Positions 43,520 through 58,470 of a DNA stretch of 64,000 bases are shown piece by piece. Numbering within the stretch: position 1 is the first letter of the stretch; every line of letters begins with the position of its first letter. The position numbers were made by a program, and so were the translations under genes. The notes under the pieces are model-generated. The model saw only the letters and a program-made list of their open reading frames with translations. It made no database searches and was not told the origin of the DNA. Source of the stretch: Algoriphagus halophilus (lineage in GTDB: Bacteria > Bacteroidota > Bacteroidia > Cytophagales > Cyclobacteriaceae); NCBI RefSeq assembly GCF_900129785.1, contig NZ_FSRC01000003.1:248001-312000 (forward strand), in the 5' to 3' direction.

Positions 43520-45217
43520 ATGCTACAAGATTCAAAAGAAAAAAGAACGTATGATGCCATTGTGATTGGCTCGGGGGCCAGTGGAGGTTGGGCAGCAAAG
43601 GAATTGACGGGGAAAGGCTTGAAGACCTTGGTGCTCGAAAGAGGTAGAATGGTGAAACATATTGAAGATTACCCCACCGCTTCCAAAGCTCCTTGGGAAT
43701 TTGAATTTAGGGGAGCGGTACCTTTAGAAAAAAGATCAGGAATTGGTGGAGGAAGATGGTTGAGGGAGGAGACTGCCCATTGGGCATTAGCGGATGATGA
43801 ACAACCCATCATACAAGAAAAACCTTTTCGCTGGTTTCGGGGATACCATGTGGGTGGGAAATCTTTGCTTTGGGCAAGAGCTACTCAAAGATGGTCTGAT
43901 TACGATTTTGAAGGACCCGCAAGAGATGGATTTGCAATTGATTGGCCAATTCGAGCCAAAGACTTGAATCCTTGGTATGATTATGTGGAAAAATTTGCAG
44001 GAATAGCTGGAAGTAGAGATGGATTGCCTGAGCTTCCTGATTCGGTTGTCATGCCAGGATTTGAATTGAGTTGTATTGAAAAGTATTACAAAGAACAACT
44101 TCAGGCAAACTATGGGGATAGACATCTGATCCAAGGGAGATGTGCCCACTTAACAGATCCCCAAGAAATTCATAAACAGCAGGGAAGAAATAAATGCCAG
44201 CATCAAGCCATGTGCAATAGAGGATGTGTTTATGGAGGATATTTTTCGGCCAATGCCTCTACCTTACCTTGGGCAGAAAAAACCGGGAATCTGACAGTAA
44301 GGCCTGATGCTGTAGTCGAGTCAATTATATATGATGATGTGAAAGGAAAAGCTTCAGGGGTAAGAATCATCGATAGGCACACTAAAGAAGCTATAGAATA
44401 TTATGCAAAAATCATTTTTGTAAATGCGTCTACCATTGCCTCCAATGCCATTCTATTGAACTCAAAATCCTCTACTTTCCCTCAAGGTATAGGAAATGAA
44501 AATGGCCTCCTAGGTAAGTATTTGGCTTGCCATAATTACAGAGGAAAAGGGTATGCAACATTTGAAGGCTTTCTGGATAAGGCCAATTTGGGAAGGAACC
44601 CTGGACATGCCTATGTTCCTAGGTTTCGAAATGTCTTTAAGCAGGACACTGATTTCTTGAGAGGTTATTCTATAGGGATGTCTGGAGGAAGAGGAATGAG
44701 TGCTGATACTGGTATGATTGGAGATCAGTTAAGAGATAATCTGCTCAACCAAAAATACAATGATGTCTGGGGGATGGCAGCTTGGATGCAAGGAGAAACA
44801 GTCCCTGTAGAAGACAATCATATGAGATTAAGCCCTGATAAAGTAGATAAATACGGCATTCCCCAGATTATTCTTTCAGTAGAATGGAAGGAGAATGACG
44901 ATAAAATGACCGCGGATTTTGTGGCTCAACAAACTGAAATGTACGAGCGGGCTGGTTTCAAAAATATCAAAGTGGAAGATTCTCATTCAGATCCTGGTTC
45001 GGATATTCATGAAATGGGAGGGGTAAGAATGGGTAAAGATCCTAAAGAATCATTACTCAATGAGTGGAATCAGTTGCATCATTGTAAGAATGTATTTGTT
45101 ACAGATGGCGCTTGTATGACCAGTACCAGTACCCAAAATCCTACTTTAACTTTTATGGCATTAACTGCGAGAGCTGCCAACCATGCAGTAGAAGAATTGA
45201 ATAAACAAAACCTTTAA
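43520..45217 (+). CDS. GMC-family FAD oxidoreductase (sugar dehydrogenase large subunit)
   Basis: 565 residues. FAD-binding Rossmann motif GSGASG at 17-22 with LVLERG ending the second strand; the active-site pair H497 (DIHEMGGVRMG) and N540 (STQNPTLTFM) is intact. It carries no signal of its own, so it probably crosses the membrane by riding on the Tat-type small subunit encoded just upstream. With that partner the closest characterised systems are gluconate/sorbitol dehydrogenases and glucoside 3-dehydrogenase. A CxxxC-type cluster (KCQHQAMCNRGCVYGG) near residue 230 resembles the iron-sulfur/cysteine loop of such enzymes. Confidence 0.93.
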   Translation: MLQDSKEKRTYDAIVIGSGASGGWAAKELTGKGLKTLVLERGRMVKHIEDYPTASKAPWEFEFRGAVPLEKRSGIGGGRWLREETAHWALADDEQPIIQEKPFRWFRGYHVGGKSLLWARATQRWSDYDFEGPARDGFAIDWPIRAKDLNPWYDYVEKFAGIAGSRDGLPELPDSVVMPGFELSCIEKYYKEQLQANYGDRHLIQGRCAHLTDPQEIHKQQGRNKCQHQAMCNRGCVYGGYFSANASTLPWAEKTGNLTVRPDAVVESIIYDDVKGKASGVRIIDRHTKEAIEYYAKIIFVNASTIASNAILLNSKSSTFPQGIGNENGLLGKYLACHNYRGKGYATFEGFLDKANLGRNPGHAYVPRFRNVFKQDTDFLRGYSIGMSGGRGMSADTGMIGDQLRDNLLNQKYNDVWGMAAWMQGETVPVEDNHMRLSPDKVDKYGIPQIILSVEWKENDDKMTADFVAQQTEMYERAGFKNIKVEDSHSDPGSDIHEMGGVRMGKDPKESLLNEWNQLHHCKNVFVTDGACMTSTSTQNPTLTFMALTARAANHAVEELNKQNL

Positions 45218-45240
45218 TTGGAAAGAACTTAGATTGATTT

Positions 45241-46101
45241 ATGAAATATAAACCTGTCCTACTGATCCTTGTCTTCATTGGCATGGCGATTTCTTTGGAT
45301 TCCTTTGCCCAGAAAAAAGGAGATCCTTTGTTTCAAGCTCCTTTGGGTATTGCGGCCTATACTTTTAGAAATGAATTCCCGAAAGGAGTAGAGCATACTT
45401 TGGATATTATCCAAGAAATGGGATTTACTGAATACGAAGGAGGTACGGCTGGGCTTACCCCAGAGGAATTTAAAAAACTATGTGCAGAAAGAGGAATAAG
45501 TATTCCTTCCACAGGTACTGGTTTTGAACAATTAGAGGAAGACCCTCAGGCGGTAGCAGATCGGGTGAAAGCTTTAGGTGCCAACTATGTCATGTGTGCC
45601 TGGATCCCTCATAAAGGAGATTTCACAAAAGCCAATGCTGATCGGGCTATTAAGGCCTTTAATGAAGGAGGAAAAGTCTTAAAAGAAAATGGGATTATTT
45701 TCAAATACCATGTTCACGGCTATGAATTCCAACCCTATGAAAATGGAACTTTATTGGATTACATCATTGAAAATACAGACCCGGAATATGTTTCTCTTCA
45801 AATGGATGTCATGTGGACGCACTTTGGAGGTGGAGATCCTGTGTCTTTATTAAAGAAGTATGGAGACAGATGGGTATCCTTACATCTGAAGGATTTCCGT
45901 AAAGGTGCTCCAAAAGATATGACTGGGTTGACTGGTCCGGAAAATGATGTTCCTCTAGGAACAGGTGAATTGGATATTCCGGGGATTTTGAGAGAATCCA
46001 ATAAGATTGGAATCAAACACATGTTTATAGAAGACGAAAGTGATCATGAGCTTGAGAATCTTCCAAAAAGTATAGCCTATTTAAAAAGCTTGAAGTACTG
46101 A
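45241..46101 (+). CDS. Secreted xylose-isomerase-like TIM-barrel protein
   Basis: 286 residues of the AP_endonuc_2 (sugar phosphate isomerase/epimerase) family with a signal peptide (LILVFIGMAISLDSFAQ). Family motifs: LGIAAYTFRNEFP, GFTEYEGGTAGLTP, FKYHVHGYEF, SLQMDVMWTHFGGGDP and WVSLHLKDF, which supply the usual Glu/Asp/His metal ligands. Exported members next to GMC and Gfo/Idh/MocA enzymes are common in Bacteroidota. A role in isomerising or cleaving an oxidised sugar made by the upstream dehydrogenase is inferred. 23 bp after the GMC gene, so cotranscribed. Confidence 0.9.
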   Translation: MKYKPVLLILVFIGMAISLDSFAQKKGDPLFQAPLGIAAYTFRNEFPKGVEHTLDIIQEMGFTEYEGGTAGLTPEEFKKLCAERGISIPSTGTGFEQLEEDPQAVADRVKALGANYVMCAWIPHKGDFTKANADRAIKAFNEGGKVLKENGIIFKYHVHGYEFQPYENGTLLDYIIENTDPEYVSLQMDVMWTHFGGGDPVSLLKKYGDRWVSLHLKDFRKGAPKDMTGLTGPENDVPLGTGELDIPGILRESNKIGIKHMFIEDESDHELENLPKSIAYLKSLKY

Positions 46102-46168
46102 CTGCCTCTTATGGACTGATGAATCCGTTTAAAAGGGTTAATTTTTGTAAAACATTGATTGCTAGGGC

Positions 46169-46197
46169 TTGAATTACGATTTTGTTTCGTAATTTTT
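46169..46197 (+). promoter_or_regulatory. Promoter with embedded palindrome upstream of the hydrolase-TPR gene
   Basis: TTG at 46169 and TAATTTTT at 46190 are 18 bp apart, close to the Bacteroidota pattern TTG-N19-TAnnTTTG. A perfect 8-bp inverted repeat (AATTACGA and TCGTAATT, 46172-46194, 7-bp centre) fills the spacer, the place a repressor would bind. The stem is too AT-rich for a terminator. Confidence 0.4.
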
Positions 46198-46219
46198 AGT
46201 TCTAACTAATTCAATTGTT

Positions 46220-47488
46220 ATGCGACATATTTTTCTATTCGTCCTGTTATTTCTTTTTTATTTTTCATCCTCGGGTTTTGCTCAAAATGAGCTTATACTT
46301 ATTTCTGTAAATGGGCGGCAAGTTGAAGTCAAATCTAGTGGATTGGAAGAAAGGAAACTACTTCAACCTGTAGTGATTTTTGAAGCTGGGCTTGGTGAAA
46401 ATCTTTCTATTTGGGATCAGGTTTTTAACCAAGTTTCTGATTTTGCTCCTGTGCTTTCCTATAATCGGGCCGGGATTGGGAAGTCTGAAGCTTCTTCCGA
46501 AACTATTACGATTGCCAGTAGGGTGGAAGAACTGGAGGGCTTGTTGAAAGAAATGAAAATTGATCCTCCTTACCTACTTGTTGGGAATAATTGGGGATCG
46601 TTAATTACGAAAGATTTTCTTGTTAAACATCCCGAAGACGTACTTGGCACTCTATTCTTGGATCCGATTGTTGAGTTAGATAATCAACAAGGGATGGCAG
46701 ACTATTTTGAAATGGAGGGTTTAGATGGAGGAGTGATTTCCTCAGAATACATAGAATTCCTCAATTCAAGAATGAGATATACTGAATCTGGTGTACAAAA
46801 TGAGGTGACTGCCTTCCTTTCTCTATTAATTGAAAATAAAGTTACTTGGGACTCCGAAGAATTACCTAATAAACAGACCACAGTTTTGCTTGGGAATGCA
46901 AATGATGTATTTCCAATGATGGGGAAATTATCAATGGATTCGAAGGAATTTCACAAAAAGTTAATGGAGGGAAAGGTCGCCTTTTTCGAGGAAAACTTGT
47001 TGGGAAAGCGAAATACTACTTTAGTGCTGTCATCCGGTTCTATGAATATATTGCCTTATCAGAAGCCTCTTCAGATTTCATCCAATATCAGACATCTGAT
47101 GTATGAAGATATGAGCGGTCAAATTATGAATGCAGGATTGAAATTAAACGCTAAAGACTTTCATGCCTTTTTGGATGGGATAGAAACCTATGTCCCTGCC
47201 TCATTAAGAACTGAGAGAGTTTACAATATGCTAGGTTATAGTTTGATGAGGCATGATCAATATGAACAGGCACAGGTGCTATTTAAAAAAAATATGGAAA
47301 ACCACCCTGAATCTGCCAATGTGTATGATTCCTACGGGGACGGGTTATTGGCTATTGGGAAAATAGAAGAGGCTATTCCTTTTTATGAAAAAGCGATAGA
47401 ATTGGGTACAGTGGAGTCTCATCGAGATTTGGAACTGTTTCGAAAAAATTTAGCCAAGACGAAGGAGATGATAGCAAGTCAAAACTGA
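46220..47488 (+). CDS. Secreted alpha/beta-hydrolase-like protein with TPR repeats, nucleophile absent
   Basis: 422 residues: signal peptide (LFVLLFLFYFSSSGFAQ), an alpha/beta-hydrolase domain (about 30-300), and C-terminal TPR units (YNMLGYSLMRHDQYEQAQVLF, ANVYDSYGDGLLAIGKIEEAI). The fold is recognised by FEAGLGENLSIWDQV, LSYNRAGIGKSE and LLVGNNWGSLI. In active relatives the last motif is GHSxGG; here position 124, where Ser should be, is Asn. The protein may be a binding protein or a non-canonical enzyme. A hairpin terminator follows by about 23 bp. Confidence 0.85.
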   Translation: MRHIFLFVLLFLFYFSSSGFAQNELILISVNGRQVEVKSSGLEERKLLQPVVIFEAGLGENLSIWDQVFNQVSDFAPVLSYNRAGIGKSEASSETITIASRVEELEGLLKEMKIDPPYLLVGNNWGSLITKDFLVKHPEDVLGTLFLDPIVELDNQQGMADYFEMEGLDGGVISSEYIEFLNSRMRYTESGVQNEVTAFLSLLIENKVTWDSEELPNKQTTVLLGNANDVFPMMGKLSMDSKEFHKKLMEGKVAFFEENLLGKRNTTLVLSSGSMNILPYQKPLQISSNIRHLMYEDMSGQIMNAGLKLNAKDFHAFLDGIETYVPASLRTERVYNMLGYSLMRHDQYEQAQVLFKKNMENHPESANVYDSYGDGLLAIGKIEEAIPFYEKAIELGTVESHRDLELFRKNLAKTKEMIASQN

Positions 47489-47510
47489 ATAAAGAGGATA
47501 AAGTAAATGA

Positions 47511-47542
47511 AAAGAATTCCGGGTTTTCTTCCGGAATTTTTA
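47511..47542 (+). terminator. Rho-independent terminator of the hydrolase-TPR gene
   Basis: Core stem AATTCCGG/CCGGAATT with an 8-nt loop, extended by A-T and one G-U pairs, ending in a T-run (TTTTT). About 23 bp after the stop. Confidence 0.8.
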
Positions 47543-47564
47543 CTTTTAGGCAAAATCTATCCTG

Positions 47565-48983
47565 ATGAATAAAATAGTACTGATTGCCACTCTTTTAATT
47601 TTTCATGCCTTTTCCTCTTTTGCACAAGATGGAAAAGATTTCAATGTTTTGATCATTCATGTGGATGATTTGGGTTGGGCGGATATTGAGCCTCTAGGCA
47701 GTGATTTTTATGAAACCCCCCATATCAATACACTTGCTTCTGAAGGTATATTATTCACAAATTCCTATGCTGCAGCAGCGATTTGTTCACCGACAAGAGC
47801 TGCCATGCTCACTGGTAAATACCCAGCCAGATTAGGAATCACCGATTGGATTCGAGCTAAATTTCAAGGGGTAACCACTTCAGGTTTACCTGGCGATTAT
47901 GAAGTCTTTGAAGACAAACCTTTGAAAACCCCTAAAATTCAAGGCTTTTTGCCTTTGGAAGAAGTGACCATTGCTGAAAGAATGAAGTCAAAGGGCTATG
48001 CTACCATGCACGTTGGCAAATGGCATTTAGGAGAAGAAGGGTTTTATCCAGAGGATCAAGGTTTTGATGTCAATGTAGGGGGTAATGATTTGGGACAACC
48101 CCCTAGTTATTTCGATCCTTATCTTCCAGAAAAGCCAAGGGAGTTTTATGAAATCACTACGTTGAAACCTAGGAAAAAAGGAGAGTTTTTGACTGATAGA
48201 GAAGGGGATGAGGTGGTGTCATTTATGAATTTGAAGAAAGATGAAAAATTCTTCATTCACTGGGCACCTTATGCGGTTCATACGCCAATTATGGGTAAAC
48301 CGGAATTGGTAGAGAAATACAAGCAAAAAGATCCGGGCAATCAGCGAAACCCTACCTATGCTGCGCTAGTAGAAAGTGTTGATCAAAATGTAGGAAAAGT
48401 AATTCATGAGCTTGAAAGATTAGGTTTAAGGGATCAGACCTTAGTGATTTTCACCTCAGATAATGGTGGATTGATCGGAAATTATGAAAACCCCATTACC
48501 AATAATTTCCCTTTAAAATCGCAGAAAGGTTATCCTTACGAAGGTGGAATAAGAATTCCTACCATTGTAAGTTGGCCCGGTACTTTGCCAGAGGGGATTA
48601 TCAATGAAAACCCAATTATTACCATGGATTGGATTCCTACAATATTGGATTTTATGGGCGATAATCCTGTTCAGGATTGTTTGGAAGGTATTTCCCTGAA
48701 AGAAACTTTGACCAACCCTCAGTCAAAACTGGAGCGTGATTTGTTTTGGCATTTTCCTCATTATCGATTAAATGATATTGTTCCCTATGCCATAGTCAGA
48801 TCAGGGGGTTATAAATTGATCCATTATTTTGATGGAAGCGAAGGAGAGCTATATAATTTGAACTATGACATGGAGGAAAAAGTAAATGTCATCTCTACCC
48901 GCAAAGCCATTGCAGAGGAATTGCAAAACAAGCTAGAACACTGGTTAGAAGAAACTGGAGCTAGATTGCCAGTGGAAAAATAG
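47565..48983 (+). CDS. Type I sulfatase, secreted
   Basis: 472 residues. The signal peptide is LIATLLIFHAFSSFAQ. The formylglycine signature is C74-S-P-T-R (AAICSPTRAAMLTG), followed by the metal-site residues in HVDDLGWAD near the N-terminus and TSDNGG. GKWHLGEEGFYPEDQGFD is a typical sulfatase block. Different in subclass from the sulfatase at 12745 (CSPSR), and its nearest relatives are N-acetylgalactosamine-sulfatase-like or iduronate-sulfatase-like enzymes; substrate not determinable. It is probably transcribed on its own, since a terminator precedes it. Confidence 0.93.
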   Translation: MNKIVLIATLLIFHAFSSFAQDGKDFNVLIIHVDDLGWADIEPLGSDFYETPHINTLASEGILFTNSYAAAAICSPTRAAMLTGKYPARLGITDWIRAKFQGVTTSGLPGDYEVFEDKPLKTPKIQGFLPLEEVTIAERMKSKGYATMHVGKWHLGEEGFYPEDQGFDVNVGGNDLGQPPSYFDPYLPEKPREFYEITTLKPRKKGEFLTDREGDEVVSFMNLKKDEKFFIHWAPYAVHTPIMGKPELVEKYKQKDPGNQRNPTYAALVESVDQNVGKVIHELERLGLRDQTLVIFTSDNGGLIGNYENPITNNFPLKSQKGYPYEGGIRIPTIVSWPGTLPEGIINENPIITMDWIPTILDFMGDNPVQDCLEGISLKETLTNPQSKLERDLFWHFPHYRLNDIVPYAIVRSGGYKLIHYFDGSEGELYNLNYDMEEKVNVISTRKAIAEELQNKLEHWLEETGARLPVEK

Positions 48984-48995
48984 AGTTTAGCTCAC

Positions 48996-49679
48996 TTAGC
49001 AAACTAACTTATAGCCGTACCCTCGGATATTTAGAATTTGAATTTCGGGATCATCTTGAAGTTTTTTGCGAAGCTTTGTGATAAAAACATCCATGCTTCT
49101 AGCGTTAAAAAAGTCATCTGCTCCCCAAATTTGATTCAAAATTAAACTTCTGTCGGTAATGTCATTACAGTTTTCCAGCAGGATTTGGAGTAGTTGGGAT
49201 TCCCTAGCGGTAAGCGGAGATTCTGTAGTTCCAAATTTCAATAATTGTCTGGTAGGATGGAATTCAAATTTCCCTAATTCCAACCAGTCGCTTTGTTGGG
49301 TTTTTAATTGTTTTCGACTCAATTGAGCCTTGATTCTTACGATCAATTCCTCCATGCTGAATGGCTTTCGGATGTAGTCATTACCTCCTTGTCCAAATCC
49401 TTTGACCACATCTTCTGTTTGCCCTTTTGAAGTCAAAAAAATAATGGGAGTGAATGGGTCAATTTTTCGAATTTCCTCTGCAAGCGTAAATCCATCCTTC
49501 TTGGGCATCATCACATCCAGAACCAGGATTTCAGGTTTGCTGGTTTTGTACTTTTCCCATGCAATTTCTCCATTGGAACAAAGAACTACTTCAAAATCTC
49601 TGCTTTCCAGGCTTTCCTGGATGATCATTCCTAGAGAGATTTCGTCTTCAGCTAAAAGTACTTTTGTCTTGGTATTCAT
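48996..49679 (-). CDS. OmpR-family response regulator
   Basis: 227 residues from the ATG at 49679. The receiver domain (residues 1-120) has the acidic pair in LLAEDE, the phosphoacceptor Asp (VLDVMMPKKDG) and the Thr/Lys switch (FLTSKGQ, YIRKPFSMEEL). The C-terminal winged helix is OmpR/PhoB-type (ESQLLQILLENCND, SMDVFITKLRKKL, IRGYGYKL). Its ATG overlaps the histidine-kinase stop in an ATGA junction, so the pair is translationally coupled. A TTG two codons upstream is an alternative start. Family regulators bind direct repeats about 10-11 bp apart, and such repeats occur at 51238-51264. Confidence 0.94.
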   Translation of the reverse strand: MNTKTKVLLAEDEISLGMIIQESLESRDFEVVLCSNGEIAWEKYKTSKPEILVLDVMMPKKDGFTLAEEIRKIDPFTPIIFLTSKGQTEDVVKGFGQGGNDYIRKPFSMEELIVRIKAQLSRKQLKTQQSDWLELGKFEFHPTRQLLKFGTTESPLTARESQLLQILLENCNDITDRSLILNQIWGADDFFNARSMDVFITKLRKKLQDDPEIQILNIRGYGYKLVC

Positions 49680-51202
49680 GGCCAAATGGTTGTAAATGAT
49701 GTGCTTTTTGGTGCAGTGTCCAGTTCGATGACTCCTCCATGTTTTTCAATGATCTTTTTGACATAATAGAGGCCAATCCCAAAGCCCTTTACGTCATGAA
49801 CATTGCCTTGAGGAATTCTATAAAATTGCTCAAAAATTCTTTCTTTTTGGCCGGAGGCGATTTTTCCGCCGCTGTCCCAAATTTTAATTTTAGTTTGGTT
49901 GCTTTGATCCAAACTGATTTTGATACGATCTCCCCCGTACTTGATCGCATTGTCCAAAAGATTAGACAATACATTTTCAAAATGGAAGGTGTCTACTAAA
50001 ATTGGCTTGATGTGAGCAGGAAGCTGGAGTTCTACTTCCTTTTCAGGGGCCAAGGTTTGGTATTTCTGAAGTAGAGAACGAAGAATGGGTTCGGGATCGA
50101 TTTCCTCCATTCTCAAAATCAATTGCTCAGAATCCAGGGTAGCTGTTTCTAATAATTTTTCTACCATCAAGTTCAATTTGTGCAATTGCATCTTTGAAAT
50201 ACCCAGATAGCGTTTGTTCTTTTCTGGGTCGTTCGTAGGATTAAATTGTTCTATTCCTTCAATGGCAGATAGTGTAGTGGCGATAGGGGTTTTGAATTCA
50301 TGGGTAATATTCGAAATCAAGTCCTGTTTGATTTCTGCCACTTCTTTTTGGTTTTTAATAGTATGGTAGAGGTAATAAAAAGCGTAAGAAATAATTCCTA
50401 AAAACAAGAGAGAGGTAAGGAGTTCGAATACTCCTCTTTTTAGAATATTGAGAGCTGTATTCTCGAAATACAATTCCAAGTATTGGCCCCTTGGCAAAAA
50501 AGTGGACTTGGTAACGGTTTTGAAAGGCATGTTCAGCAAGGCTGGATAATTATAGGAACCGGAAATGGTGTCCTTGGCAAATTGAAGTAAGCCATAATTG
50601 ATGCTGATTCCTTTTCTATCTAAATCAGCTTGGAATAGCTCGTTGATTTTTCCGAAATCCAGAGAATCTCTGGTTATAGAAATGATGATGGTATTAGTCA
50701 ATGCCTTAAGCCGATGAATACTATCTGCAGATTCTAATCCTCGAAAAATATTGATCTGATGTTGCTCATCTACTGTCATATTTGTAGCCGAGTCAAACGT
50801 TAAATCATTGTATAAATGAATGGATTTAGAGGAATCAGAAAATGACCAGGTGGCAGCATTGGAATCAATTGCCTCTAAAGTTTCCAAGGATTTGAAAAAC
50901 ATTTTACTTTTTCCTACACGATGAAAAAAACTATTGTTCAGACTATCTGCTTTTAAGGAATCAGAAACTGTGAAATCGAGCTGCAGTGGCTTTCCATCGG
51001 TTAAGGTAAGCACATCTGTTTTTGCCAAATCCGCAAAATATGCTTCTAATGCATTGTCTAAACTCACCTGAATATCCTTGGTCAGTTGAGTTTCTATTTG
51101 TTTGAATTGAGAGATATTTCTATAGATCTGTACTCCGATGGAGACCAACAAAGTGAATCCTATTAAAATACCTATCCGCTTGAATTGTAGCTTTTTCACC
51201 AT
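49676..51202 (-). CDS. Sensor histidine kinase
   Basis: 508 residues with two transmembrane helices (IGILIGFTLLVSIGVQIY and LLTSLLFLGIISYAFYYLY) flanking an approximately 230-residue periplasmic domain that I do not recognise. Phosphoacceptor H301 lies in NITHEFKTPIATTLSAIEG. The catalytic domain has the N box (NVLSNLLDNAIKYGG), the DSGG-type G1 and GFGIGLYYVKKIIEKHGG. It partners the response regulator downstream. The sensory domain probably reads an envelope signal; the divergent GLPGLI/outer-membrane genes are likely targets. Confidence 0.93.
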   Translation of the reverse strand: MVKKLQFKRIGILIGFTLLVSIGVQIYRNISQFKQIETQLTKDIQVSLDNALEAYFADLAKTDVLTLTDGKPLQLDFTVSDSLKADSLNNSFFHRVGKSKMFFKSLETLEAIDSNAATWSFSDSSKSIHLYNDLTFDSATNMTVDEQHQINIFRGLESADSIHRLKALTNTIIISITRDSLDFGKINELFQADLDRKGISINYGLLQFAKDTISGSYNYPALLNMPFKTVTKSTFLPRGQYLELYFENTALNILKRGVFELLTSLLFLGIISYAFYYLYHTIKNQKEVAEIKQDLISNITHEFKTPIATTLSAIEGIEQFNPTNDPEKNKRYLGISKMQLHKLNLMVEKLLETATLDSEQLILRMEEIDPEPILRSLLQKYQTLAPEKEVELQLPAHIKPILVDTFHFENVLSNLLDNAIKYGGDRIKISLDQSNQTKIKIWDSGGKIASGQKERIFEQFYRIPQGNVHDVKGFGIGLYYVKKIIEKHGGVIELDTAPKSTSFTTIWP

Positions 51203-51237
51203 GCTAAATTAGGAGCTAATCAATTGAAAAACCGAAT

Positions 51238-51264
51238 GTTAACACACGTTAACACTGCTTAACT
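51238..51264. promoter_or_regulatory. Three (G/C)TTAAC direct repeats with 10-bp period
   Basis: GTTAACAC at 51238, GTTAACAC at 51248 and CTTAACTT at 51258 occur exactly 10 bp apart in the divergent region between the histidine kinase start (51202) and the GLPGLI start (51311). Direct repeats of this period are the usual binding geometry for OmpR-family dimers, so this is the best candidate binding site for the adjacent response regulator. Confidence 0.6.
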
Positions 51265-51310
51265 TAGTTATTTGGGCTGTTTTTATTGGTTTGCATCAAA
51301 GAAAATACAT

Positions 51311-52144
51311 ATGAAAACCAAAATTTTACTCCTCGGATTTATTGTTTTTATGGGCCTAGTAAGCACTACTAGGGCTCAGGGATTGACTGGGATTGCCCAC
51401 TACAAATCCTCTTCAACTATCAAATTTTCAATGGATAGCACTAAAATGGCTCCTGAGGCTATGGCAGATATTCAAAGACAGTTGAAAAAACAACTGGAAA
51501 AGGAATATGTGCTTACGTTCAACCAAGGAGAATCTAATTGGAAACAAGCAGAAAGCTTAGGTGCCGGGCCTGCTACCGCTTCTTCAGGAGGTGCTACAAT
51601 CGTTATTAATACTGGTGGAAGTGATTTAGTCTTGTATAAAAATTTGGCAGAACAGAAATACTTGGAAGAGAAGGATTTGATGGGGAAAGAATTTTTGGTC
51701 AAAGATGACCTGAAAGTATTTGAATGGGAACTTACAGGAGAAACCAAGACCATTGGTAATTATACCTGTCAAAAAGCGACCTATACAAAAATTCTAGACA
51801 GCAAAAGGTTCTCCACAGGGATGGAAGAAATGGAAGAATTCAAGGATACTGTACAAGTGGTCGCATGGTATACCGATCAAATTCCAGTTAGCCATGGACC
51901 TTCTGAATTTTGGGGACTTCCTGGCCTAATCCTCGAGTTACAAAACAATGGTTCTACTATGATCTGTGAGAAGATTGTGTTGAACCCAGAAGAGAAGTTT
52001 GAGCTCATTGTTCCTAAAAAGGGAAAAGAAATGACAGCAGATGAATATAGAGCCCTTGCAGATGAGAAGATGCAAGATATGATGAAAAAATACCAAGGAA
52101 AGCCAGGAGGAGAACATCAAATGACTATAAAAATCGGTAATTAA
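51311..52144 (+). CDS. GLPGLI-family secreted protein
   Basis: 277 residues from the ATG at 51311, which begins a good signal peptide (ILLLGFIVFMGLVSTTRAQ); the frame extends 13 codons upstream but the upstream residues do not fit a signal. The family tag FWGLPGLILEL is present near residue 215. The rest is beta-rich with a stretch of Gly/Ser/Ala (AGPATASSGGATIV). Function of the family is unknown; members are confined to Bacteroidota and often precede outer-membrane barrel genes. Here it is 31 bp before a large barrel gene. Confidence 0.9.
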   Translation: MKTKILLLGFIVFMGLVSTTRAQGLTGIAHYKSSSTIKFSMDSTKMAPEAMADIQRQLKKQLEKEYVLTFNQGESNWKQAESLGAGPATASSGGATIVINTGGSDLVLYKNLAEQKYLEEKDLMGKEFLVKDDLKVFEWELTGETKTIGNYTCQKATYTKILDSKRFSTGMEEMEEFKDTVQVVAWYTDQIPVSHGPSEFWGLPGLILELQNNGSTMICEKIVLNPEEKFELIVPKKGKEMTADEYRALADEKMQDMMKKYQGKPGGEHQMTIKIGN

Positions 52145-52175: not shown

Positions 52176-54854
52176 ATGAAATTTATTTTTAGGGTTTTTG
52201 CGGGATTTCTCCTTTTGATTTTCCTTTCTTTTCCTTCTTACTCTCAAACAAAAAATCTGATTGGGCAGGTGGTGGATACATTAAGTCAGCCGATTAGCTA
52301 TGCAAATGTGGTCGCAGTCAATCAGACTACTCAAAAGATCGGGGCATTTGCCATCACCAATGGGGATGGACGTTTTAAACTGGCCTTAACTCCAGGGTCT
52401 GAGTACTTACTCAGAATTTCATTTGTAGGGTATAAAAAGTTTGAGCGTACCATTTCAGATTGGTCTCCAGACGAGCCTATCCAAGTGATTTTATCCACTG
52501 ACGAAACCATGCTGGATCAGGTGGAAGTCGTGACTGAACTACCTGTAACTATGCAGGGAGATACATTGACTTATAAGACAGACGCCTTTACCACTGGGAC
52601 TGAACGAAAATTAAAAGATGTACTGGAAAAGCTTCCCGGTTTTGAGATTGATGAGGATGGAGGGGTGAAAGTTCAAGGAAAGAAAGTAGATAAAGTCATG
52701 GTGGATGGGAAAAACTTTTTTGATGGGGATACAAAATTGGCAACCAAAAACCTTCCCGCCAATGCTGTAGATCGTGTTCAGGTTTTGAAGAATTTTAATG
52801 AAGTAGCTCCTGTTAGAGGTTTGGACACAGACGAATCCCTGGCTTTAAATATCCAGTTAAAAGATGGCAAGAAACGGATGGTGTTTGGAGATTTGACAGC
52901 AGGAGGAGGTCCAAAAGAAAGGTATTTGGGACATGCCAACGCATTTTATTACTCTCCCAAATTAAACTTGAATTTAATCGCAGATGCCAATAATGTAGGA
53001 GAATTGCCATTTACACTTCAGGATTATTTCCGATTTAGCGGAGGATTAGAAGGGCTTGGAAGAAGGACAGGATCTTCAATTTCCTTGAGTGGAGAAGATA
53101 TGGGAATTCCTATGGCCCAACGAAATAATGCAGCCTCTTTAGAGACAGCATTGGGAGCATTTAATTTCAACTTTCGCCCAAGTTCTAAATGGAGACATTC
53201 CGGATTTATCATTGGTTCAAGCTCGGAAAATAAATTGGGTAGTAACTCTCAGAGAACCTATTTACGAGACGATGAAAATAATCAGGAGATTTTGACGTCT
53301 GCAAGTACTGTGGAAAATTCCTACGGATTAATGAAGTATTCAGCAACTTATACACCCCGAGAAGAAACCTATGTGAAATATTCGGTTTTTGGGAAAACTT
53401 CGGATATCCAAAATAGAAATATCATGGATTCGGATTTTGGGACCTTTAGGCAACAACTTGACAATATCCAAACTAGAAAACCTTATAGTATCCAACAGAA
53501 AGGAGAGTGGTACCATGCTCCTTCCGAAAAACGTGTCTTTTCTATGGAGGTAAACTGGGAAAAGAAATACCAAGATCCTTTGTATGATTTGACTACCAAT
53601 CAAAAACCATTTGTAAACCTACTTCCAATCATGGATCAGAAACAATATCGCTTTTTGCAACAGCAAGAAGTACATTCCAGAACTATGGAAGGGGCATTTA
53701 ATTATTACCAAATTTTAAATGCTACAAACCATGTGAATTTGAGCCTGGGGTATTCGGATACTAGGCAGGATATGATTTCCAGCTTAAGTCAAGTAGCTTC
53801 CGGTGAAAATTACCCAGAATTTGAAAATGATAATCGATTTGGGATTCAGGATCTTTACTTAGGCTTTACCTATAAAACCAAATGGAAGGATTTTATCCTA
53901 AGTCCATCATTGTTTACCCATCGATATGCTTGGCAAGACAGACAGTTTGAGGACCTGATGGAGCAGGATAAGATATTATTCTTACCTGGAATGTATGCAA
54001 AATGGGCAATCAAGTCCAATAAATCTTTGACCTATAGGTATCAGGCAACAGCTAATTTTATGGATGTGCAACAATTGGCGGAAGGATATATCATTCAGGA
54101 CTACAATTCAATTTTTACTGGAAATAGATTGCTTGAAAATGGATTTTACTCCAATCATTCCTTGAATTATAGCCATTATGATTTTTTCTCTTCAATGACT
54201 GTTTATGGTTCTTTGAACTGGCAGAGAAAAAGGAATGATATGGTAACGACCACTGATTTTAGAGGAATTAATAGGTTTCTTACCGTATTGAATATTGAGC
54301 CAGTAAATGAAACCATGAATGGAAATATTAATCTGGATAAGAAATTCAATACCTTCAAAATTAGCGGTGGGGGAAGATGGAATACATTTACAACAAATAA
54401 TTTGATCAACGATGTAGTCAATCAAAATAGACAGTTCTCCCAAACTTATGAAGCAAAAGCTACCACCACTTTCTTTAAAAAAGTAGAAGTGGATTTAAGT
54501 TATACCTTTTCCACCAATCAGTACAAAGGACAAAGTACCCAAAACACATTCAATACCCATACTCCGAAAATTGAATTGGATTGGGATATCTGGAAAGGCT
54601 TGAAATTGAACACTGATTATGCCCTGAATACGTATACCAATAAAGGAGCAGGAACGAAAAGTGAATTTGATTTTTGGAATGCTTTCCTTAGCTATCAAGG
54701 TAAAAGCAGTCCATTGGAGATTAGATTGACGGTTTGGAATATTTTGGATACCAGGTCGATTCGAAGGGATAGCTTTACTGATAACTTAATTAGTTCATAT
54801 TCCTATTTAGTTCAACCTAGATATGGACTCATAACTGTCAAATGGGATATTTAA
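52176..54854 (+). CDS. Outer-membrane beta-barrel protein, TonB-receptor-like
   Basis: 892 residues. Signal peptide (VFAGFLLLIFLSFPSYSQ), a carboxypeptidase-regulatory-like domain about 26-115 (IGQVVDTLSQPISYANVVAV, LRISFVGYKKFER), a plug-like region (YKTDAFTTGTERKLKDVLEKLPGFEIDEDGGVKVQGK, here read in parts), and from about 240 a barrel with many aromatic strands ending KWDI. This is the outer membrane beta-barrel protein family found after GLPGLI genes, a cousin of TonB-dependent receptors without a clear TonB box. It presumably acts with the GLPGLI protein in uptake or signalling, cargo unknown. Confidence 0.9.
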   Translation: MKFIFRVFAGFLLLIFLSFPSYSQTKNLIGQVVDTLSQPISYANVVAVNQTTQKIGAFAITNGDGRFKLALTPGSEYLLRISFVGYKKFERTISDWSPDEPIQVILSTDETMLDQVEVVTELPVTMQGDTLTYKTDAFTTGTERKLKDVLEKLPGFEIDEDGGVKVQGKKVDKVMVDGKNFFDGDTKLATKNLPANAVDRVQVLKNFNEVAPVRGLDTDESLALNIQLKDGKKRMVFGDLTAGGGPKERYLGHANAFYYSPKLNLNLIADANNVGELPFTLQDYFRFSGGLEGLGRRTGSSISLSGEDMGIPMAQRNNAASLETALGAFNFNFRPSSKWRHSGFIIGSSSENKLGSNSQRTYLRDDENNQEILTSASTVENSYGLMKYSATYTPREETYVKYSVFGKTSDIQNRNIMDSDFGTFRQQLDNIQTRKPYSIQQKGEWYHAPSEKRVFSMEVNWEKKYQDPLYDLTTNQKPFVNLLPIMDQKQYRFLQQQEVHSRTMEGAFNYYQILNATNHVNLSLGYSDTRQDMISSLSQVASGENYPEFENDNRFGIQDLYLGFTYKTKWKDFILSPSLFTHRYAWQDRQFEDLMEQDKILFLPGMYAKWAIKSNKSLTYRYQATANFMDVQQLAEGYIIQDYNSIFTGNRLLENGFYSNHSLNYSHYDFFSSMTVYGSLNWQRKRNDMVTTTDFRGINRFLTVLNIEPVNETMNGNINLDKKFNTFKISGGGRWNTFTTNNLINDVVNQNRQFSQTYEAKATTTFFKKVEVDLSYTFSTNQYKGQSTQNTFNTHTPKIELDWDIWKGLKLNTDYALNTYTNKGAGTKSEFDFWNAFLSYQGKSSPLEIRLTVWNILDTRSIRRDSFTDNLISSYSYLVQPRYGLITVKWDI

Positions 54855-56352: not shown

Positions 56353-57336
56353 ATGAAAAAATTAGTTAAGTTTTTAGGGTGGGTAATCGGGATTTTGGGT
56401 CTGGTAATTTTAGCTTTTGTAAGTTTTGTGTATCTGACCTGGGATAAAAAATATGAAGCTCCCTATCCCGAAGCCATGGCAAGTGCTGATTCTGCCATGA
56501 TTGCTAGAGGAAAATATTTGGTTTTTGGGCCTGCCCATTGTGCGGGTTGCCATAACACAACAGAAAGATCTGCTCAGGTGGAATTGGGTATGGACTTAGA
56601 GCTCATAGGAGGAGCAGAGTTTGTATTTGGACCAGGGATATTGAGATCTAGGAACTTGACTCCTGATAAAGAAACCGGAATAGGAAATTTGACAGATCAA
56701 GAGGTGGCGAGGGTGATGAGGTATTCCATTGGGCATGATGGTAGGCCAATTTTTCCTTTAATGCCATTTCAAAATATGTCAGATGAGGATGTAAATGCCG
56801 TGATTTCTTATTTGAGATCCCAGCAACCCGTCAAACACCCTATCCCACCTACTGAATATAATTTTATGGGTAAAGCTATTTTAGCCCTTGGGTTAATAAA
56901 GCCTGAAGGTCCTGATGGTACTCCTCCAAAAAGAGTAAAAGTAGAAGCATCTGAAGTGTATGGGAAATATTTGGCAAATTCAGTCGCCAATTGTGTGGGC
57001 TGTCATTCTCCTAGGGACTTGATGAGTGGGGAATTTATTGGTCCTAAATTCAGTGGAGGACTTTTATTTGAAGAGGCTCCAGGAGAGAGTTTTATCACAC
57101 CAAACCTTACGCCTGACCCCGAAACCGGATACATTGCTAATTGGACCGAGGATACTTTTGTGCAAAGGTTCAAAACGGGAAGAATATACGAACATTCTCC
57201 AATGCCTTGGGGAAGTTTTTCGAGAATGGATGAGGTGGATTTAAGGGCATTGTATCGGTATTTAATGTCCTTAGATCCTGTATCCAATAAAATTGAAAAG
57301 ACAGAGTACATGCTTCAAGCTGCAGGTTCTAATTAA
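56353..57336 (+). CDS. Membrane-anchored di-haem cytochrome c
   Basis: 327 residues, one N-terminal membrane anchor (VIGILGLVILAFVSFVYL), then two cytochrome c domains with haem motifs CAGCH at 63-67 and CVGCH at 214-218. Likely axial Met are in PIFPLMPFQNM and SPMPWGSFSRM. Similar in layout to the proteins at 36646 and 57481. Such cytochromes accept electrons from exported sugar or alcohol dehydrogenases. A 272-bp AT-rich gap precedes it, with no promoter found. The next gene encodes a close paralogue. Confidence 0.92.
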   Translation: MKKLVKFLGWVIGILGLVILAFVSFVYLTWDKKYEAPYPEAMASADSAMIARGKYLVFGPAHCAGCHNTTERSAQVELGMDLELIGGAEFVFGPGILRSRNLTPDKETGIGNLTDQEVARVMRYSIGHDGRPIFPLMPFQNMSDEDVNAVISYLRSQQPVKHPIPPTEYNFMGKAILALGLIKPEGPDGTPPKRVKVEASEVYGKYLANSVANCVGCHSPRDLMSGEFIGPKFSGGLLFEEAPGESFITPNLTPDPETGYIANWTEDTFVQRFKTGRIYEHSPMPWGSFSRMDEVDLRALYRYLMSLDPVSNKIEKTEYMLQAAGSN

Positions 57337-57480
57337 TAAATCCGAAGCTGATTTTTACAAAGTAAACCAACCTATTTTTAATTGACCAGTTAATTTTTTC
57401 TTTTTAGATCCTTATGGAAATGAGGTGAAAGGAGAAGTCTTGCCACAATGATTTCAATAACCTTTTAAACCCAACACCTC

Positions 57481-58470
57481 ATGAAAAAATGGATCATTAC
57501 ATTAATGGGAATTGTGATACTAGGGATAGTTTCACTGTTTGTTTTTGTAGAATCAAGATGGGATAGAACGTATGATTTTCCATATCCTGAAATAACCCAT
57601 AGTTTGGATTCAACAGTAATCGAACGTGGTAAATATTTGGTTTATGGACCAGCGCATTGTGCCTCTTGCCACATCAACATAGATGATTATGAATCGATGG
57701 AAGCGGGAGAATTGATTCCTTTGCGTGGTGGGGAAGTATTTAATTTGAACTATGGAGTGGTCGTCTCATATAACCTTACACCAGATGTGGAAACAGGTAT
57801 AGGAGGTTTTACGGATGGCGAGATTGCGAGGGCCATGCGAGAGGCTGTGGGACATGACGGTAGGATTTTGCCAAATTTTATGCCTTTCAAATTGATGACC
57901 GATGAAGATGTTGTTGCAGTAATTTCTTTTTTAAGATCTCAAAAGCCTGTAAAAAACCCAATACCAAAGCCTGTTTACAATTGGAGCGGTAAATGGAAAA
58001 TAAGTACAGGAAAGATTCGTCCTAGAATTATCCATGGGACTACCCTGCCTTCTATCAAACGAGAAGCAACAATAGAATATGGAAATTATTTAGTCAATAA
58101 TGTCGCCAATTGTGTGGGATGTCACTCTATGGCAACCGTTGAATATGGGGAAAAGAAATATAGATTTGGTCCCCTTTCCGGAGGAGTAATATTTGGTGGA
58201 AATAATGTAAATAATACCCGGTATGTAACTCCTAATTTAACTCCTGAAAAACAAACAGGGATGATTGCTAATTGGGATGAAGATACTTTTGTAGCTAGAT
58301 TTCGACAGGGTAGGGTGTATGAAACATCTCCTATGCCATGGGGAAGTTTTGCCAGAATGGATGAAGTGGATATTCGTGCTATATATCGTTATTTAAAATC
58401 CATTAAACCTATTGCAAATAAAATTGAAAAAACTGTGTATCAACCAGGAGAAGAAATTGAAGGCAGCTGA
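57481..58470 (+). CDS. Membrane-anchored di-haem cytochrome c (tandem paralogue)
   Basis: 329 residues, same plan as the upstream neighbour: membrane anchor IVILGIVSLFVFV, haem motifs CASCH (60-64) and CVGCH (211-215), and the shared second-domain block VYETSPMPWGSFARMDEVDIRA (read as two parts). The two appear to have arisen by tandem duplication, then drifted mainly in the first haem domain. It lies 144 bp after the first copy. Its stop is 1 bp from the stop of the convergent oxidoreductase gene, so there is no room for a terminator. Confidence 0.92.
   Translation: MKKWIITLMGIVILGIVSLFVFVESRWDRTYDFPYPEITHSLDSTVIERGKYLVYGPAHCASCHINIDDYESMEAGELIPLRGGEVFNLNYGVVVSYNLTPDVETGIGGFTDGEIARAMREAVGHDGRILPNFMPFKLMTDEDVVAVISFLRSQKPVKNPIPKPVYNWSGKWKISTGKIRPRIIHGTTLPSIKREATIEYGNYLVNNVANCVGCHSMATVEYGEKKYRFGPLSGGVIFGGNNVNNTRYVTPNLTPEKQTGMIANWDEDTFVARFRQGRVYETSPMPWGSFARMDEVDIRAIYRYLKSIKPIANKIEKTVYQPGEEIEGS

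Follow-up and report, generated by a model that had tools for sequence, protein, structure and literature searches.

An array of phased TTAAC repeats as the probable operator shared by a GLPGLI/barrel gene pair and a divergent RprY-like two-component operon in Algoriphagus halophilus

GLPGLI proteins recur in Bacteroidota genomes and, to our knowledge, have no known function. In Escherichia coli, the cpxP gene is located head-to-head with cpxRA. The boxes of CpxR have been described as GTAAA-N5-6-GTAAA, and the periplasmic protein CpxP as well as DegP have been listed among the positive targets of CpxRA (PMC9600279). For several regulators of Bacteroidota, DNA motifs or target genes have also been reported. 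The DAP-seq motif of PhoP from Riemerella anatipestifer is most conserved at TTTAACA, a 35-nt stretch in front of the operon that encodes PhoP is bound by the protein, and its 50 direct targets include five GLPGLI genes (PMC9603813). In Porphyromonas gingivalis, a PG0720 mutant had lowered levels of the GLPGLI genes PG1492 and PG1908 (PMC8757827), and RprY was reported to probably repress chaperone genes (PMC3646045). A link between a regulator and GLPGLI genes is thus already in print, and the data for Riemerella PhoP and P. gingivalis PG0720 agree with the operator reading presented here. For the geometry that connects the repeats with the promoter, no description was found in the open-licence literature searched.

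Here, we analyzed a repeat array of A. halophilus. The window, i.e. the whole stretch of DNA analyzed, comprises 64,000 nucleotides (G000:C3:248001-312000 of the 4.98-Mb genome). According to the original prediction, three near-identical words with an exact spacing of 10 bp lie between the divergent start codons of a histidine kinase gene and a GLPGLI gene, and the adjacent operon encodes an OmpR-family regulator. All of this was confirmed. The array GTTAACACACGTTAACACTGCTTAAC has the structure GTTAAC-N4-GTTAAC-N4-CTTAAC, the flanking genes have the predicted identities and orientations, and the regulator contains the two expected domains (Table 1). Solely the end of the array had been placed one base too far, at 51264, while it occupies positions 51238-51263. 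Word length and spacing correspond to the direct repeats of OmpR/PhoB-type operators (words of 5-6 bp, about 10-11 bp apart). The spacing is 10/10 in A. halophilus, and it is commonly 10/10/11 elsewhere.

Table 1. Genes, TTAAC boxes and predicted promoter elements at the locus (positions in the window).
Feature	Position	Strand	Remark
OmpR-family response regulator, RprY-like	48996..49685	-	Response_reg + Trans_reg_C
Sensor histidine kinase	49676..51202	-	HisKA + HATPase_c
-7-like element TAATTTAG of the predicted kinase promoter	51204..51211	-	adjoins the kinase start codon
TTAAC box 1	51239..51243	+	with the preceding G, GTTAAC at 51238-51243
TTAAC box 2	51249..51253	+	
TTAAC box 3	51259..51263	+	at the expected -33 position of the GLPGLI promoter
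-7-like element TTGGTTTG of the predicted GLPGLI promoter	51286..51293	+	consensus TAnnTTTG
GLPGLI family protein (TIGR01200 / Porph_ging)	51311..52144	+	
CarboxypepD_reg-like N-terminal domain protein	52176..54854	+	taken as outer-membrane beta-barrel

The GLPGLI protein scored 187.6 bits against TIGR01200 (cut-off 50) and is thus a family member. It is 96% identical to a GLPGLI protein of Algoriphagus lutimaris, and a fold prediction from seven close orthologues had a mean pLDDT of 33.9, which is too low for a structural comparison. The product of the next gene is taken, by resemblance, as an outer-membrane beta-barrel. This gene is probably located on the same transcript as the GLPGLI gene, which it follows in congeneric loci wherever the fetched DNA reaches far enough. 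For two genes the start codons deserve comment: alignment of orthologues indicates that the kinase possibly starts with the GTG at 51199 and not with the ATG at 51202, and the regulator ORF was listed from a TTG, while the ATG at 49679 is the likelier start. Further away, the regions 43520-48983 and 56353-58470 encode oxidoreductase-like, sugar-isomerase-like and two cytochrome-c-like proteins (named by eye) as well as a sulfatase (Pfam), which suggests that the locus is surrounded by a sugar-oxidation cluster.

The three-word pattern has a single exact match in the window. When up to three mismatches were allowed, two matches were obtained, the second being the same place on the other strand, compared with a mean of 0.17 in shuffled sequences. 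The exact TTAAC triplet also occurs just once in the whole genome of 4,976,387 bp. The two-word pattern STTAACN4STTAAC gave two forward readings and one reverse reading in the genome, all of them within the site at 51238-51263. Its reversed control gave 9+9 matches, and therefore the two-word pattern per se is not over-represented. There was also no sign of a regulon of weaker sites elsewhere in the genome: with up to three mismatches, 84+67 matches were found versus 352+339 for the reversed control. Because there was no excess, the signal is a single exact site and not a family of weak ones. Among 17 examined genomic loci with at most two mismatches, the element T[AT]nnTTTG was present at a distance of 22 bp only at the array itself and at C4:374514. 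At the latter (L085) the boxes are degenerate, a -7-like element follows after 22 bp, and the next gene encodes an exported-looking protein, so that this gene represents a candidate second target in A. halophilus.

Next, the position of the array relative to the promoters was considered. The consensus of the -7 element of Bacteroidota promoters is TAnnTTTG (PMC7366714). A sigma-70 promoter scan of positions 51100-51400 found nothing, as expected for Bacteroidota. Box 3 is located 22 bp upstream of the -7-like element of the GLPGLI gene, and box 1 is 27 bp away from TAATTTAG on the kinase side. In all exact copies within the genus (59/59), a TTTG follows exactly 26 bp past the last box. This TTTG is the end of TTnnTTTG, which is close to TAnnTTTG, and it was absent from the search pattern and is hence a free feature. 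The same does not hold for the invariant TTAAC letters, which prove nothing because they were fixed by the search. The spacer columns between the boxes had a mean information content of 1.68 bits in the 59 copies, compared to 0.45 and 0.49 bits in the upstream and downstream flanks, respectively. On the kinase side, 42 of 47 congeneric loci have a T[AT]nTTT at a distance of 27-29 bp from box 1. In addition, a pool of 100 sites contained 59 head-to-head loci (two of which were counted twice), and in 44 of these TAnnTTTG was present on the kinase strand at a distance of 25-29 bp from box 1, most often at 27 bp. The offsets on both sides indicate that the two divergent promoters are phased to one and the same array. 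The position relative to the promoter is thus conserved, as is typical of an operator, for promoters that were predicted from sequence. The original prediction had named GLPGLI as the target. While conservation supports this, the geometry suggests that both divergent promoters are controlled, and not that of GLPGLI alone.

Conservation of the array was analyzed in 145 related genomes, 72 of which represent the genus (G000-G071), while 73 are from outside. The exact triplet was found in 72 of the 145 genomes, i.e. in 52/72 within the genus and in 20/73 outside, and every triplet listed for the genus is located at a kinase/GLPGLI-type locus. Of the 145 genomes, 49 had a match to the first 270 residues of the kinase. 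These 49 all belong to the genus, and 48 of them contain the exact triplet. The exception is G036, in which a single deletion has removed the N-terminus of the kinase, the operator and the N-terminus of the GLPGLI protein (L127, G036:C1:3543897-3553418); this is a natural loss of the whole switch. Among the 23 genomes of the genus without the kinase, four contain the exact triplet (G007, G019, G035 and G057), and all four have a GLPGLI gene. A motif-blind count was also performed, which comprised the GLPGLI loci of 56 genomes of the genus (G069 was left out as the contig ends before GLPGLI) and, for each, the 330 bp in front of the first aligned GLPGLI gene together with its first 30 bp. The presence of the repeats at orthologous loci had been named as a check. 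Of the 48 congeneric loci that have retained both the kinase and the regulator, 47 carry the exact repeats, and in the exception a deletion runs through them. At several loci the GLPGLI gene is duplicated in tandem, and the second gene has its own triplet, which is exact in seven of eight cases and has one mismatch in the eighth. We also considered whether the GTTAAC palindromes allow control in both directions, but rejected this, since second GLPGLI copies that do not face a kinase keep the same letters.

Eight congeneric genomes have the GLPGLI gene and lack both the kinase and the regulator gene. At these loci the numbers of mismatches to the triplet were 0, 0, 0, 0, 1, 1, 3 and 4. Exact boxes in 47/48 loci with the pair versus 4/8 loci without it correspond to a Fisher p of about 0.0009, uncorrected for kinship; related genomes are non-independent observations, and many are draft assemblies of limited completeness. 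These eight relatives, four of which have kept the boxes intact, are the most difficult observation to reconcile with the operator reading. Either another protein may bind the boxes, or the loss of the pair may be recent. In the pairless small-genome relatives (L099, L100, L103, L104, L113, L118, L126 and L142), the GLPGLI and barrel genes remain, and at L099, L103 and L118 the upstream gene resembles, by eye, the sugar-isomerase-like gene at 45241-46101 of the window. A search for the regulator in 25 genomes of the genus, including all 23 without the kinase (E-values up to 1e-50), retrieved no protein with more than 47% identity from these 23; 21 of them have an RprY-like paralogue, and two yielded nothing.

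Outside the genus, 23 further GLPGLI loci (L155-L177) were chosen by protein similarity, four of which are second GLPGLI types from genomes of the genus. A kinase gene is adjacent in nine of the 23, all outside the genus, and all nine carry the related operator TTAAC-N5-TTAAC-N15/16-TTAAC, so that the ortholog check also held beyond the genus at the kinase-linked loci examined. Two pairs of loci are near-identical (L161/L162 and L163/L164). In eight of the nine cases, a -7-like T[AT]nnTTT[GA] follows at 22-23 bp; in the ninth it follows at 12 bp, one helical turn closer. At L166 the array precedes the barrel gene, which is the first gene in a barrel-GLPGLI-kinase-regulator run, and at L163 and L164 the barrel forms a separate unit with a second copy of the array in front of it. 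Three or four boxes precede GLPGLI at four of the 14 loci without an adjacent kinase (L156-L159), and neither exact pattern was found in the DNA read at the other ten (seven barrel-first, three GLPGLI-first). By coordinates, the exact triplet is located at a GLPGLI gene in only four of the 20 triplet-containing genomes from outside the genus. In G073, G082, G097 and G131 it precedes GLPGLI, and no two-component pair was present in the DNA read (one of these reads, L159, ends 404 bp past the site); the regulator tree contains a same-clade candidate encoded elsewhere solely for G073. The triplets at G073:C490, G082:C28 and G142:C26 are one kinase length away from an RprY-like regulator gene. G088, from the same order, has 90 TTAAC-triplet matches, many of them in paired arrays such as TTAACCGCTATTAACTGTTTTTAAC, which are a different repeat family.

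The search was extended to the phylum with a strict pattern, i.e. three boxes and TAnnTTTG at 21-23 bp, which yielded ten sites in 395 genomes and none with the reversed pattern. The pattern misses the genus Algoriphagus, in which the second and third boxes have a spacing of 10 bp. All ten sites are located at two-component loci, nine of them head-to-head with a kinase gene, whereby a kinase was defined in the scans as a match to the profile of the local kinase orthologues, which other HisKA kinases can also match. Five of these nine precede GLPGLI genes and four precede genes for other exported proteins (export judged by eye), and the tenth site precedes the run at L166. A loose pattern without the -7 element was applied to the class and matched 107 places in 79 of 295 genomes versus about 63 for the reversed control, which is only about 1.7-fold enriched. 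Ninety of the 107 places were read, three of which repeat sites of the strict search; the places left out were six overlapping ones from two simple (TTAAC)n arrays and a further 11. Fifty of the 90 sites are head-to-head with a kinase gene, and eight precede GLPGLI. TAnnTTTG was found at an offset of 22 bp in 39 sites, of 21 bp in five and of 23 bp in two, and no other single offset accounted for more than two sites. A kinase, regulator, GLPGLI or barrel gene adjoins 39 of the 46 sites with the element at 21-23 bp, compared with 18 of the 44 sites without it (Fisher p about 2e-5).

The genes downstream of the class and phylum sites encode GLPGLI proteins, barrels, small exported proteins, HtrA-type proteases and an M23 peptidase. 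Two of six exported proteins without a known enzyme domain carry a T9SS sorting domain (Pfam). HtrA-type proteases (trypsin and PDZ domains) are encoded behind the TTAAC operator at L192, L217 and L253, with the -7 element at 22 bp at L217 and L253. A box that is tied to GLPGLI itself was considered and rejected, since neither exact pattern was present in the DNA read at ten of the 14 GLPGLI loci of the L155-L177 set without an adjacent kinase, only 8/90 class sites precede GLPGLI, and other exported proteins are encoded behind the box at several kinase loci. The original prediction of a regulator-target pair for GLPGLI is supported in that the site tracks the two-component system. The architecture is, however, common to a broader group of RprY-like regulators, and GLPGLI is one target type among several.

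The best named family of the regulator is RprY (NCBIfam NF051850), with 266.9 bits, which is below the equivalog cut-off of 370 bits. All other proteins scored were also below this value: two proteins of the same clade reached 208.3 and 231.2 bits, and the full-length RprY-side proteins 320.0, 323.4 and 349.1 bits (seven proteins were scored, one of which is only a 100-residue piece). In a tree, 29 full-length regulators from head-to-head loci of the class, together with that of the window and outgroup regulators, formed two RprY-like clades, both of them apart from three other OmpR-type regulators of A. halophilus. One clade is the RprY side and the other the GLPGLI side, which had a support of 0.931 in a tree with added RprY-side lineages and also contains a few regulators that face other genes. 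The helix RSMDVFITKLRKKL, which we take to be the recognition helix, has the pattern R(S/N/T)(M/L)DV(Y/F) that is common to both clades and differs in the three other paralogues. The regulator is thus RprY-like in the wide sense, by its grouping and its similar recognition helix. An RprY-like paralogue from the other clade is encoded at C2:491539-492216 and is 46% identical to the local regulator. Near its gene, between an RprY-like kinase gene and a decarboxylase-like gene (named by eye), a triplet with one mismatch is present (L070, G000:C2:489760-489784). As this triplet is head-to-head with the kinase gene of the paralogue, a shared operator with possible cross-talk is likely. Such cross-talk may explain why boxes were kept where the dedicated pair has been lost.

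Together, the array is conserved, phased to both promoters and co-occurs with the two-component system, and the regulators have similar recognition helices. As the site tracks the two-component system in the phylum and class scans, the adjacent regulator or a close paralogue is indicated. We propose, with a probability of roughly 85%, that the TTAAC array is an operator through which the adjacent RprY-like regulator would activate the GLPGLI/barrel genes and probably also its own operon. Predicted switches of the same design are also found next to related sensor-regulator pairs of many other Bacteroidota. From the sequences we infer that binding would be cooperative and dependent on phosphorylation, and that it would lead to activation, not repression. 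Dimers of the phosphorylated regulator would bind side by side to the direct repeats, which, at a phasing of 10 bp, lie on one face of the DNA. With box 3 at the -33 position and 22 bp from the -7 element, the bound regulator would be placed to contact RNA polymerase and to activate GLPGLI and the barrel gene. On the other side, the divergent kinase-regulator operon has its -7 element at a distance of about 27-29 bp from the array, which would probably set the level of that operon by autoregulation.

Several other explanations have to be weighed. The boxes might be bound mainly by the paralogous RprY-like regulator, or by both paralogues, so that the local pair merely modulates. The one-mismatch triplet at the kinase gene of the paralogue in the same genome and the similar recognition helix would fit, as would the four pairless genomes with exact boxes, which do have an RprY-like paralogue. 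However, just 4 of the 23 kinase-less genomes of the genus have an exact box, although 21 of them have the paralogue, and exact boxes go with the pair (47/48 versus 4/8, with the kinship-uncorrected p given above). We therefore regard this explanation as unlikely. A repressing role of the regulator at GLPGLI is less plausible still. The last box overlaps the -33 position, where a bound regulator could keep RNA polymerase away, P. gingivalis RprY is a probable repressor of chaperone genes (PMC3646045), and in the Riemerella phoP mutant two of the GLPGLI targets went up, with three going down (PMC9603813). Yet the constant spacing to the -7 element across lineages and the presence of TTAAC, not TTTG, at -33 are better explained by an activator that replaces the -33 element, and the levels of PG1492 and PG1908 are lowered when PG0720 is mutated (PMC8757827).

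The fixed spacing to the -7 element and the exact box in four genomes without the pair could also be taken to mean that the words are core-promoter or structural DNA signals, e.g. an extended promoter that the housekeeping sigma factor recognizes, without a specific regulator. But exact triplets in the genus are confined to the kinase/GLPGLI-type locus, all ten strict phylum sites are at two-component loci, and conservation extends to the spacer letters, which makes such an explanation very improbable. That the array is a functionless chance repeat or a restriction-type palindrome can practically be dismissed: boxes 1 and 2 are indeed GTTAAC palindromes, and such words recur by chance in AT-rich DNA, but the triplet is unique in the genome and its fixed phasing has been kept in dozens of species.

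Activation by the adjacent regulator, our preferred reading, has several implications. As the proposed operator connects one branch of the GLPGLI proteins with a dedicated two-component system and with a barrel protein, the function of these proteins becomes approachable via the signal of the kinase. The signature of TTAAC array, 22 bp and TAnnTTTG is searchable and could be used to propose direct targets of RprY-like regulators without expression data, and these would include HtrA-type proteases. The geometry also suggests how an activator can replace the weak -33 element of Bacteroidota promoters. More tentatively, and by analogy, the locus might exemplify an ancient Cpx-like design for envelope stress in Bacteroidota, in which an RprY-like operon is head-to-head with a gene for an exported protein, a single array serves both, and GLPGLI takes the role of CpxP. 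In this possible design, both promoters would be phased to one TTAAC array, at 22 bp and at about 27-29 bp, and further copies of the array would precede genes for HtrA-type proteases, the M23 peptidase and beta-barrels. If true, GLPGLI would be a stress-induced envelope factor or a feedback partner of the kinase, like CpxP in enterobacteria.

The locus can be compared with four known systems. PhoP of Riemerella is likewise an OmpR-family regulator with an outer-membrane beta-barrel and GLPGLI proteins among its direct targets, but it was reported with 583 peaks genome-wide, in contrast to the single exact site in A. halophilus; the likeness concerns motif and targets (PMC9603813). HaeSR of P. 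gingivalis (PG0719/PG0720) is similar in that the regulator mutant has lowered expression of two GLPGLI genes, whereas its regulon is described as global and hemin-linked (PMC3764172, PMC8757827); here, the likeness is based on the change in GLPGLI expression (PMC8757827). RprXY of Bacteroides and Porphyromonas is the best-scoring named family for the regulator, the RprY-side proteins form the neighbouring clade in the tree, and the kinase genes of these RprY-side proteins have a head-to-head operator of the same type, but the targets named for RprY are groES, clpB, dnaK, ahpC and its own promoter (PMC3646045). Lastly, the locus resembles cpxP-cpxRA in its relation to the envelope, in the head-to-head arrangement of the genes and in the repeats with a period of 10 bp. 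CpxR, too, is an OmpR-family regulator with five-letter direct repeats 10-11 bp apart (PMC9600279). The phylum, the promoter type and the letters of the boxes are different, and the likeness, of which a resemblance between GLPGLI and CpxP is no part, is an analogy.
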